Origin: Pseudomonas sp. S35
GTDB taxonomy: Bacteria; Pseudomonadota; Gammaproteobacteria; Pseudomonadales; Pseudomonadaceae
NCBI RefSeq assembly: GCF_009866765.1
Contig: NZ_CP019431.1
Coordinates: forward strand, 1,116,001-1,180,000
Reading direction: 5' to 3'
Length of the DNA stretch: 64,000 bases
The first letter of the stretch is position 1; every line of letters starts with the position of its first letter. Shown one piece after another: positions 4,577-8,078 of this stretch. Both the position numbers and the translations under genes were made by a program. The notes beneath the pieces are model-generated. The model made no database searches. It saw nothing but the letters and a program-made list of their open reading frames with translations, and had not been told where the DNA came from.

Positions 4577-5323
4577 ATGGAAAACGCCAGCACCGCCCCT
4601 CGTCTTCCCCGCAAGCGCCGCAGCCTTGCCCAGGAATTGGTCACGGTGCTGTCCGAGCAGATCCGTGACGGCGAACTCAAACGGGGCGATAAACTGCCCA
4701 CCGAGTCCGCAATCATGGAAGCCCACGGCGTCAGCCGCACCGTAGTGCGCGAAGCCATCTCGCGTTTGCAGGCGGCGGGGCAGGTGGAAACGCGTCACGG
4801 CATCGGCACCTTTGTGCTGGATACGCCGAGCCCGAGCGGCTTTCGTATCGACCCGGCGACCGTGGTCACGTTGCGTGACGTGCTGGCGATCCTGGAGTTG
4901 CGTATCAGCCTGGAAGTGGAATCCGCCGGCCTGGCCGCGCTGCGCCGCAGCGATGAACAACTGGCGGCCATGCGTGCGGCACTCGATGCCCTGAATGAAA
5001 GCGCGGCGCACGCCGGCGATGCGGTCGCATCCGACTTCGCGTTCCACCTGGAAATCGCCCTGTCCACAGGCAACCGTTACTTCACCGATATCATGACCCA
5101 CCTGGGCACCAGCATCATTCCGCGTACGCGCCTGAATTCTGCGCGCCTGGCACATGATGACCAGCAGCACTACATGGGACGCCTGAGTCGCGAGCACGAA
5201 GAGATTTACGAGGCGATTGCCCGCCAGGATTCGGACGCAGCGCGGGCGGCGATGCGTTTGCATTTGACCAACAGTCGCGAGCGGCTGCGCCATGCTCATG
5301 AAGAGGCTGAAAAGGCAGGCTGA
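4577..5323 (+). CDS. GntR/FadR-subfamily transcriptional regulator of sugar-acid catabolism
   Basis: A 248-residue regulator. The N-terminal winged helix-turn-helix (about 15-80) contains LAQELVTVLSEQIRDGELKRGDKLPTE-type sequence and the recognition helix region VSRTVVREAISRLQAAGQVETRHGIGTF. The C-terminal all-alpha FCD ligand-binding domain (about 95-235) has the conserved D and H residues (DFAFHLEIA and the MTHLG and SREHEEIYEAI segments). FCD regulators usually repress sugar-acid genes and release DNA on binding the sugar acid or an intermediate. The kdgD-gudP-garD operon starts 1.8 kb downstream, so it is the likely target; the phospholipase module has come between them. Specific ligand unknown. 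Confidence 0.9.
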   Translation: MENASTAPRLPRKRRSLAQELVTVLSEQIRDGELKRGDKLPTESAIMEAHGVSRTVVREAISRLQAAGQVETRHGIGTFVLDTPSPSGFRIDPATVVTLRDVLAILELRISLEVESAGLAALRRSDEQLAAMRAALDALNESAAHAGDAVASDFAFHLEIALSTGNRYFTDIMTHLGTSIIPRTRLNSARLAHDDQQHYMGRLSREHEEIYEAIARQDSDAARAAMRLHLTNSRERLRHAHEEAEKAG

Positions 5324-5388
5324 TGAATGTCAGCAGGTGACTCGGTGATCACGGTGTTTAGCGTCACAGTCTGCCGTTGAGCGTTTTT

Positions 5389-5631
5389 CTATGACTGTTG
5401 TTTTGATTGGATATAGGTAGCTAGCGAGTCTAGTGTTGTTTCCTCCGCCACTTTGTCAGGAAGTGTTAACTGAAGCTCCTTCACTGACGTTTCAATCACG
5501 CGAAGCCTTTCGTTCTTGTCAGCAATCAGCTCAGCCAAAGGCATATAGGGATCAAAGTCTTGATCTTTTTTATCCCGATTGGCTTCGAAACTTGAGGCCA
5601 GTAGGCCGAAAATTTCATCAGTGGTTTTCAT
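5389..5631 (-). CDS. Small protein of unknown function, partner of the phospholipase-like gene
   Basis: An 80-residue, mostly helical, acidic and lysine-rich soluble protein with no signal peptide or membrane segment (MKTTDEIFGLLASSF at the start, TYIQSKQQS at the end). I do not recognise its family. An AAGGTG ribosome site lies 4 nt before the ATG on the minus strand. It is the downstream partner of the phospholipase-C-like gene, separated from it by 146 bp holding a 13-bp hairpin. Its base composition is visibly more AT-rich than the flanking metabolic genes, as expected of a recent arrival. It could be an immunity or accessory protein; that is inference from position and size only. Confidence 0.75.
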   Translation of the reverse strand: MKTTDEIFGLLASSFEANRDKKDQDFDPYMPLAELIADKNERLRVIETSVKELQLTLPDKVAEETTLDSLATYIQSKQQS

Positions 5632-5680
5632 GATGCACCTTTCTCATCAGCGTGAGTAAAAGAAGCAAAAATCAGCTCCG

Positions 5681-5710
5681 CCTCAGGAGCTAAGGCATTA
5701 GCTCCTGAGG
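5681..5710 (-). terminator. Hairpin between the phospholipase-like gene and the 80-aa gene
   Basis: A perfect 13-bp stem, cctcaggagctaa (5681-5693) with ttagctcctgagg (5698-5710), has a 4-nt loop. Read on the minus strand it lies downstream of the phospholipase-like gene and is followed, after about ten bases, by a run of five T. It may be a partial terminator that lowers expression of the 80-residue gene relative to the upstream one. Confidence 0.6.
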
Positions 5711-5777
5711 TGTGTTATCCGCCCTTGGTTAACGGTGCATAACTGTCAGAAATCACAGTACCGACAAGCGGTACCGC

Positions 5778-6932
5778 TTAAGCCGGGGTATTCGGCTTGT
5801 AGTCCTTGAGCAACAAATACGTACTCCAACCCCACCAATCATCCGTCCAGTGCTTGTCGTTCAGGTCATTCACATCCTTGCGGCGCAGCACCTTGCCATC
5901 CTCCATCTTGAACAGTGGCGAAAAGTTATTCGCCGGATTTTGCGTCGCCTTCAGGTCCGGCACAGACAGTGGCGCCTTGAAGTTGGCCGGTGAGGGCGCA
6001 ACGCCACTGATGAAGGTCTCGAAGACCTCATCGGCGGATGCCTGAACGGCGCGTTTGACCTGTACCCGATTGGCAGCGTCGATGCTGTCGAAATAGCGTT
6101 TGTCGCCATAGGCATGCCACTCGTCGCCCATTGCATTACGCACCTTGAGCCCGAATTTACTGTCCTCATCGTGCATGAAACGGCTGATCAGCGAGCCCAA
6201 CTCGCCCGGTGTGACCACTGCCGCCAGTTGCTTGCGCGGCACCCGCAAGTGGCCGGCAGAAAACAGATCGGTCAAAAAGTGATCAGCAAAGCTGTTCATG
6301 GCATACGCCAGTTCGAGCGCCTGGTCGGTGCCGGTTTGATGGGCGACCACGGCCTGTTGCAACGCTGCCGTATGCCCCGCCAGGTAGGCCAACAGTGCCC
6401 ATTCGCCGAAGTGGTCGGCGTTGTCTGCCGCCAGCTTCAGGTAACGGCCCAGCGGAATCAGTGCCGACACCGCGCTGCCACCTCCGGTGATGCGGTTCCA
6501 TTCCTCGGACAACGTATCACCCAGCGCGTCATAGGCTTCATGGGGTTGTTTACCGTCTTTTATCGCCTGGTTGACCGCGTCGATCTCCTTTTGCATCACC
6601 GCAAGGATCTTGCCGGCTTCGTCCCGTGACGCTGGCAGTACCGCCAGTGAGTTGAAGGCCGCAGTGAAGCGTTGCACACGCTCGGCAGGGGAGGCGCCAT
6701 CGCTGATGGGCTGACCCGCAATGCCATAGAAGTCACCGCCCAGGGCGATCACTTGGCCATAGGTCAGTGCCAGCCCGTTAGGCAGGTGCAGCTCAACTTG
6801 CCGTGCGGGAATTGCCGGGGCGTCCTTGGCGAAGCGCAACAAGGTGTCGTCACCGATAGCCGTGTGTTCGCCGCCTTCGAAGCGCAGGGTTGGTGGGTTT
6901 TTTTGGGGTGCTGCGAGTTCAAGACCTGACAT
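5778..6932 (-). CDS. Zinc-dependent phospholipase C / P1-nuclease-like protein, SOS-box controlled
   Basis: A 384-residue protein without signal peptide. The histidine/aspartate pattern fits the helical zinc fold of phospholipase C and S1/P1 nuclease: H23, D67 in GGDFYG, H174, H187, then SFADHFLTDLFSAGHLR with D217, H218, D222 and H228, and MHDED (H254). The spacing HFxxDxxxxGH resembles the zinc-PLC signature HYxxDxxxPxH. It probably hydrolyses phosphatidylcholine or a related phosphodiester, and resembles the signal-less phosphatidylcholine phospholipase C I recall from P. fluorescens. An AAGGAG site precedes the ATG by 5 nt. Its promoter carries a LexA box. With no signal peptide it acts inside the cell, is injected, or is freed by lysis. 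Confidence 0.7.
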   Translation of the reverse strand: MSGLELAAPQKNPPTLRFEGGEHTAIGDDTLLRFAKDAPAIPARQVELHLPNGLALTYGQVIALGGDFYGIAGQPISDGASPAERVQRFTAAFNSLAVLPASRDEAGKILAVMQKEIDAVNQAIKDGKQPHEAYDALGDTLSEEWNRITGGGSAVSALIPLGRYLKLAADNADHFGEWALLAYLAGHTAALQQAVVAHQTGTDQALELAYAMNSFADHFLTDLFSAGHLRVPRKQLAAVVTPGELGSLISRFMHDEDSKFGLKVRNAMGDEWHAYGDKRYFDSIDAANRVQVKRAVQASADEVFETFISGVAPSPANFKAPLSVPDLKATQNPANNFSPLFKMEDGKVLRRKDVNDLNDKHWTDDWWGWSTYLLLKDYKPNTPA

Positions 6933-6969
6933 GTTAGCTCCTTGCTATGTCGTAGGAATCTTCCTTGTT

Positions 6970-6989
6970 AACTGTATGTATATACAGTT
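6970..6989 (-). promoter_or_regulatory. LexA (SOS) box upstream of the phospholipase-like gene
   Basis: CTGTATGTATATACAG (6972-6987) has the exact CTG-N10-CAG layout of gamma-proteobacterial LexA sites, with an AT-alternating core and flanks extending the palindrome to AACTGTAT...ATACAGTT (6970-6989). It lies 38-57 nt before the minus-strand start codon, over the expected transcription start. LexA bound here would block the gene until DNA damage. The divergent kdgD promoter is about 85 nt away. Confidence 0.85.
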
Positions 6990-6995
6990 ATGACG

Positions 6996-7023
6996 AGCAT
7001 AGAGGATAAATTTCCTACGTCAA
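6996..7023 (-). promoter_or_regulatory. Candidate promoter of the phospholipase-like gene
   Basis: On the minus strand TTGACG (7018-7023) is followed after 16 bp by TATGCT (6996-7001). Transcription would begin around 6988, inside the LexA box, which fits repression by LexA. Confidence 0.55.
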
Positions 7024-7166: not shown

Positions 7167-8078
7167 ATGAATCCACAAGAGCTGAAGTCCATCCTCTCCC
7201 ACGGTCTGCTGTCTTTCCCGGTGACCGATTTCAACGCCCAGGGTGACTTCCACCAAGCGGGCTATATCAAGCGCCTTGAATGGCTGGCTCCTTACGGCGC
7301 CACCGCGTTGTTCGCCGCAGGCGGCACCGGTGAGTTTTTCTCCCTGGCGGCCAGCGAATATTCCCAAGTGGTAAAGACCGCTGTTGATACTTGCGCCACC
7401 AGCGTGCCGATCCTCGCCGGTGTTGGCGGTTCGACGCGCCAAGCCATCGAATACGCCCAAGAGGCCGAACGCCTGGGCGCCAAAGGCCTGCTGCTGCTGC
7501 CGCACTACCTCACCGAAGCCAGCCAGGACGGCGTTGCCGCCCACGTTGAAGCCGTGTGCAAATCGGTAAAAATCGGTGTGGTGGTCTACAACCGTAATGT
7601 GTGCCGCCTGACCGCACCGCTGTTGGAACGGCTGGCCGAGCGCTGCCCGAACCTGATCGGCTACAAGGACGGCCTGGGTGACATCGAATTGATGGTGTCG
7701 ATCCGCCGCCGTCTGGGCGACCGTTTCAGCTACCTCGGCGGCCTGCCGACTGCAGAGGTTTACGCCGCTGCCTACAAGGCCCTGGGCGTGCCGGTGTACT
7801 CCTCGGCGGTGTTCAACTTCATCCCGAAAACCGCGATGGACTTCTACCACGCCATTGCCAAGGATGATCACGCCACCGTCGCCAAGATCATCGACAACTT
7901 CTTCCTGCCTTACCTGGATATCCGTAACCGCAAGGCCGGGTATGCCGTGAGCATCGTCAAGGCCGGTGCAAAAATCGCCGGCTATGACGCAGGCCCTGTG
8001 CGCACGCCGCTGACCGATCTGCTGCCGGAAGAATACGAAGCCCTGGCCGCGCTGATCGACAAGCAAGGCCCGCAATAA
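7167..8078 (+). CDS. kdgD: 5-dehydro-4-deoxyglucarate dehydratase
   Basis: A 303-residue enzyme of the dihydrodipicolinate-synthase/aldolase superfamily (TIM barrel). It converts 5-keto-4-deoxy-D-glucarate to 2-oxoglutarate semialdehyde, CO2 and water (EC 4.2.1.41). The family motif [11 protein letters not shown] lies near residues 50-60, and the Schiff-base lysine is K167 in IGYKDGLGD. The next gene, a semialdehyde dehydrogenase, uses its product, which separates it from a true DapA. It is the first gene of the operon; the start codon ATG 7167 follows the promoter and operator above. Confidence 0.93.

Follow-up and report, generated by a model that had tools for sequence, protein, structure and literature searches.

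The 64,000-nucleotide stretch of Pseudomonas sp. S35 DNA analysed here (henceforth called the window) carries plcC, a gene for a predicted leaderless phospholipase C (PLC), with a LexA box at its putative promoter. The enzyme is of an already described type, its PLC activity being predicted from sequence; the DNA-damage box ahead of its gene is conserved genus-wide, the partner gene proposed in the window was mistaken, and relatives encode a real partner family. LexA-type control of plcC is apparently unreported. The reading that we favour, with moderate confidence, is that of a LexA-repressed, leaderless PLC of the zinc type, which would be made upon DNA damage, freed at lysis, and cut the phospholipids of other cells. 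The gene and the signals ahead of it are as follows:

plcC, short form: 5778..6932, minus strand; 384-amino acid (aa) open reading frame (ORF), predicted leaderless PLC.
Ribosome-binding-site-like AAGGAG of plcC: 6938..6943, minus strand; seen in the sequence and also in most copies listed.
LexA box CTGTATGTATATACAG (CTGTATATACATACAG along the plcC strand): 6972..6987, no strand assigned; perfect arms, first base 55 nt ahead of the plcC ATG.
-10-like hexamer TATGCT of plcC: 6996..7001, minus strand; 16-nt spacer to the -35, conserved in box-anchored upstream regions.
-35-like hexamer TTGACG of plcC: 7018..7023, minus strand; TTGAC positions conserved at 0.89-0.99 across the 97 upstream regions anchored on the box.

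The -35- and -10-like hexamers form a sigma-70-like promoter just ahead of the LexA box, so that transcription of plcC is expected to begin where the box does or close by, at its border, a position that would suit repression, and two promoter-like sites were found in the upstream region as compared to 1.1 expected. Three perfect CTGTATN4ATACAG sites, the plcC box among them, are present in the 6.6-Mb genome (reversed control pattern: 0), and recA as well as lexA of the same genome have CTGT-N8-ACAG boxes. The two remaining perfect LexA-type boxes are located at genome positions 1288339 (L103) and 6091104 (L104), approximately 200-300 nt ahead of ORFs of 162 aa and >400 aa.

Across 298 Pseudomonas genomes, plcC was detected in 99, at 101 loci in total, and it is sparse outside the genus: a class-wide scan added three further genomes with the enzyme (of 369), and a phylum-wide scan one genome outside Pseudomonas (of 398). 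CTGT-N8-ACAG precedes plcC in 97 of the 98 near-full-length copies (match of at least 900 nt, including L022, truncated where its contig stops, and L029, for which no in-frame start codon was found), these copies being relatives and hence not independent. An ATG-TC start follows 52-57 nt after the first box base in all 97 boxed copies, with revised starts being used for L028, L065, L073, L088, and L092 (ATG further upstream first called) as well as for L083 and L085 (further downstream). Markov resampling of the sequence ahead of plcC at all 101 loci gave the motif in 110 of 20,200 resamples. Since it is conserved across copies, the plcC box is considered more than chance. The sole boxless near-full-length copy, L098, is a divergent second plcC; genome G096, to which it belongs, also has a boxed copy. 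The box was likewise found ahead of plcC in 80/80 loci on contigs with names, a second collection that overlaps in part with the 298 genomes and for which 80 of 168 relatives were retained (79 titled Pseudomonas, 1 Pantoea). No perfect LexA box was detected near the distant relatives from the class-wide scan (L122, L123, L124), the first of which has a leader-like N-terminus by eye. The alphaproteobacterial LexA box is GTTC-N7-GTTC, and none was present in the 9,086 bases searched around a Rhizobium plcC copy. With a box that overlaps or abuts its predicted promoter and is conserved in relatives, plcC has the sequence features of a LexA regulon gene.

The genes on either side of the locus bear on a different regulator:

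kdgD (5-dehydro-4-deoxyglucarate dehydratase): 7167..8078, plus strand; divergent from plcC, NCBIfam TIGR03249 above cut-off.
GntR/FCD-family regulator (gntR): 4577..5323, plus strand; convergent with plcC, Pfam GntR and FCD.

Control of plcC by the adjoining GntR-family regulator, with the LexA-like palindrome being incidental, was proposed in 2008 for P. fluorescens MFN1032 (PMC2613904) as far as the GntR part is concerned, and we regard it as quite unlikely here. The consensus T.GT-N0-3-AC.A does occur within -150 to +60 nt of the box start in 78/97 copies, but it is loose, the sole match that the window has between plcC and kdgD sits on the side of kdgD, 165 nt ahead of plcC, and kdgD would be the natural target of such a regulator. 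Moreover, no gntR match was found in the stretch covered at 21 of the 101 loci (L022 being cut by the contig end), and 20 of these 21 are boxed, with L098 as the exception. Overexpression of GntR in MFN1032 left lipopeptide production unimpaired (PMC3269426), a result that does not bear on plcC itself.

An initial annotation had described the plcC product as a zinc-PLC/P1-nuclease-like protein without a signal peptide, and this description held. The eight residues it had named (H23, D67, H174, H187, H218, D222, H228, and H254) are present at these positions in PlcC of the window, are invariant, together with E256, in 98/98 near-full-length Pseudomonas copies, and are all kept in the Rhizobium relative as well. 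Following that annotation, we take this His/Asp pattern to be putatively metal-binding; PlcC thereby has the conserved putative metal ligands of the zinc PLC/P1 nuclease superfamily. The fold check for a PLC/P1 core that had been suggested came out positive, as the model of a relative with 77% identity to PlcC of the window has a zinc-PLC-like, all-helical PLC/P1 fold, and no leader was seen at the PlcC N-terminus by eye. At least 502 database relatives were found at E <= 0.001 (7,997 best candidates scored, 120 listed); among the matches listed, many are called phospholipase, these being 70-93% identical to the window protein, one of them a 385-aa protein with 93% identity. No family was assigned to PlcC by Pfam or NCBIfam, even with E values up to 1 allowed, and neither PADLOC (defence systems) nor a sequence search of solved structures returned a match. 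The gene was also considered as mobile cargo and rejected as such, with no match among 50,697 phage records and two distant matches among 72,556 plasmid records. Its GC content (59.3%) is close to that of the window (59.9%).

The initial annotation had further proposed a two-gene module, a claim that stands for the plcC family and falls for the neighbouring ORF in the window. In relatives, a 63-aa transthyretin-like protein begins 2-15 nt after plcC in all 57 longer copies, and it was found in 0/242 genomes without a longer copy and behind 0/41 short copies of the window type. In L054, L200, and L223, where motif filters had missed it, the partner was recognised on reading, whereas the 400 nt read for L219 showed none. 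By this gene arrangement, the 63-aa protein is the real partner family of plcC in relatives. The boxless copy L098 has the 63-aa partner. The short form in the window lacks an N-terminal segment of approximately 58 residues as well as a C-terminal domain; in long PlcC forms (P0021 residues 449-545), sequence profile and fold both match this domain to the plug-domain region of spider latrotoxins. On plasmid p3 of Rhizobium leguminosarum (L162:3797-7021), a long PlcC, a 65-aa relative of the partner, and a vWA-domain protein are encoded in a row, and because this relative has both extensions and the partner, the direction of change is read as long to mid to short. In a quick plcC tree, the root was not used, as the outgroup L122 sat on a very long branch (L018, L021, L058, L077, L097, and L098 were left out). 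Another genome of the same phylum (L168:985-3186, minus strand) encodes a long PlcC relative with a 71-aa ORF 279 nt downstream that is partner-like by eye. Likely, the ancestral module comprised the 63-aa helper working with the N-terminal segment of PlcC, and the lineage of the window likely lost helper and segment and kept the LexA switch.

Behind plcC in the window, two other features are found:

80-aa ORF: 5389..5631, minus strand; rare passenger gene, beginning 146 nt behind plcC.
Terminator-like hairpin between plcC and the 80-aa ORF: 5681..5710, minus strand; 13-bp perfect stem, 4-nt loop, T run approximately 10 nt beyond.

The 80-aa ORF was correctly described in the initial annotation as lying on the same strand behind the enzyme and as AT-rich (43.6% GC); its proposed role as an immunity-like partner was not borne out. 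A toxin-immunity pair, in which the 80-aa protein neutralises PlcC in the producer, could be argued from its being the next ORF downstream on the same strand and from its being probably a real gene, since its aligned relatives are 71-84% identical. Such a pair is nevertheless highly improbable: the co-occurrence check suggested at the outset gave the 80-aa protein in 2/298 genomes versus 99/298 for the enzyme, its ORF is split over two frames in the second of these genomes (G101), 39 of the 41 short plcC copies lack it, and the hairpin parts it from plcC. Hence, with six database relatives besides itself (one a 48-aa fragment), it was rejected as the plcC partner. Among families, PHROG alone gave a match to it, and a weak one (phrog_33016, function unknown, E 0.0071). 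The hairpin (fold energy -29.6 kcal/mol over 71 nt, z -4.4) is terminator-like but no textbook terminator, as the T run starts approximately 10 nt past the stem; the plcC family does not share it, a comparable one having occurred within the first 500 nt in only 5 of the 99 gaps scanned. The claim that the LexA box controls the pair is consequently kept in part: the box is at the predicted plcC promoter, and control of both genes is unconfirmed, the 13-bp hairpin standing between them. Where gntR was found, the gap between plcC and gntR ranges from 18 to 1,995 nt across L001-L101 and contains many differing small ORFs; this gap is hypervariable, and the 80-aa ORF probably entered it as an unrelated insertion. 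Several of the small ORFs in these gaps (5324-5777 in the window) resemble each other by eye.

As a mechanism, LexA would repress plcC at the box by the predicted promoter, DNA damage would remove LexA and thereby induce plcC, the leaderless enzyme would leave with lysing cells, and, once freed, it would cut the phospholipids of other cells, whose membranes are the presumed target. Release by lysis is suggested by the lack of an evident leader, by immediate neighbours that are not secretion genes, and by related PlcC in culture supernatants; the original description left open the route of the leaderless PLC into the medium (PMC2613904). Lysis genes are present in the genome: an S24 repressor and a holin (Phage_holin_3_5, Pfam) are encoded upstream of recA (L170:14763-16406), between ORFs that by eye look like mutS and cinA, an interval in which related strains carry SOS-linked pyocin elements (PMC2647930). 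An R-type tailocin as release route was rejected, with no contractile sheath match in the genome and no tailocin cluster in the L170 stretch read. PlcC of MFN1032 is said, in the part of the report available, to be absent in the early growth phase (PMC3269426), which fits late release, not LexA in particular. Judged from the window alone, the box is weak evidence: it is the sole site within two mismatches of CTGTATN4ATACAG, but at least one such site was found in 49/100 shuffles. PlcC activity in cultures without reported damage weighs against damage-induced release. That PlcC instead exits living cells by an unrecognised route, with LexA adding timing and the 63-aa protein serving as a loading adaptor in the longer forms, strikes us as unlikely.

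Damage-induced release could, more tentatively, be extended to a damage-triggered module across fluorescent pseudomonads. There, a LexA-held, leaderless zinc PLC would in its full form have an N-terminal segment served by the 63-aa helper and a latrotoxin-plug-like C-terminal domain, and dying cells would arm the neighbourhood against phosphatidylcholine-rich membranes of eukaryotic grazers or hosts, i.e., colicin logic aimed outside bacteria, with the window holding a stripped-down descendant that retains the switch. Outside support for the grazer reading is weak: in a survey of soil pseudomonads, the negative trend that related their phospholipase production to the growth of protists was only marginally significant (PMC7769776).

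That the LexA box was kept despite the loss of domains and of the partner gene suggests that DNA-damage timing is core to PlcC function. The LexA regulon is known mainly for repair and bacteriocins; if the proposed control is true, a membrane-attacking enzyme joins it, the published GntR assignment of plcC is questioned, and an entry point to the 63-aa partner family is gained. No LexA link to this phospholipase was found in the literature searched, judged partly from titles and abstract starts, and this absence is weak evidence. Such control may be in print, e.g., in the 2007 SOS transcript study of P. fluorescens DC206.

In comparison with known systems, the window protein is closest to PlcC of MFN1032 (385 aa, 42 kDa, no signal peptide, flanked by DHDPS-like and GntR genes; PMC2613904) and the PC-PLC of Preuss et al., as far as these descriptions are available, and is alike in size, leaderless start, and the flanking kdgD and gntR. 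With approximately 385 aa, no evident leader, and DHDPS-like/GntR flanks, it has the marks of the PlcC orthologue group and is very probably the orthologue of MFN1032 PlcC. The accessible text of the MFN1032 paper credits a GntR site and makes no mention of LexA, whereas plcC of the window has a LexA box; it also records unknown genes in the plc operon, two for Pf0-1 and one for Pf-5, without identifying the 63-aa family (PMC2613904). Legionella PlcA, which like PlcB and PlcC of Legionella belongs to the zinc metallophospholipases C found in bacteria and fungi, shares 43% identity with the Pseudomonas PlcC (PMC2613904, Table 3). It is made with a Tat leader and exported by type II secretion (PMC6617341), whereas in the Pseudomonas forms no leader is evident and a LexA box is present. 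The Clostridial and Bacillus zinc PLCs (alpha-toxin, PC-PLC) and the P1 nucleases resemble PlcC in the His/Asp pattern and in the modelled fold of its relative; the sequence searches found no match of PlcC to them. These enzymes are secreted via leaders. Type VI lipase effector (Tle) modules include vgrG or a gene for Tli immunity; at the locus, the part of the genome examined for this, the immediate neighbours of plcC are kdgD and gntR. LexA-controlled bacteriocins such as colicins have a LexA box at the promoter and a leaderless protein, and plcC likewise combines such a box with a leaderless product. Unlike colicins, it has no immunity or lysis gene recognised alongside, encodes a predicted phospholipid-cutting enzyme, and is located on the chromosome between metabolic genes.
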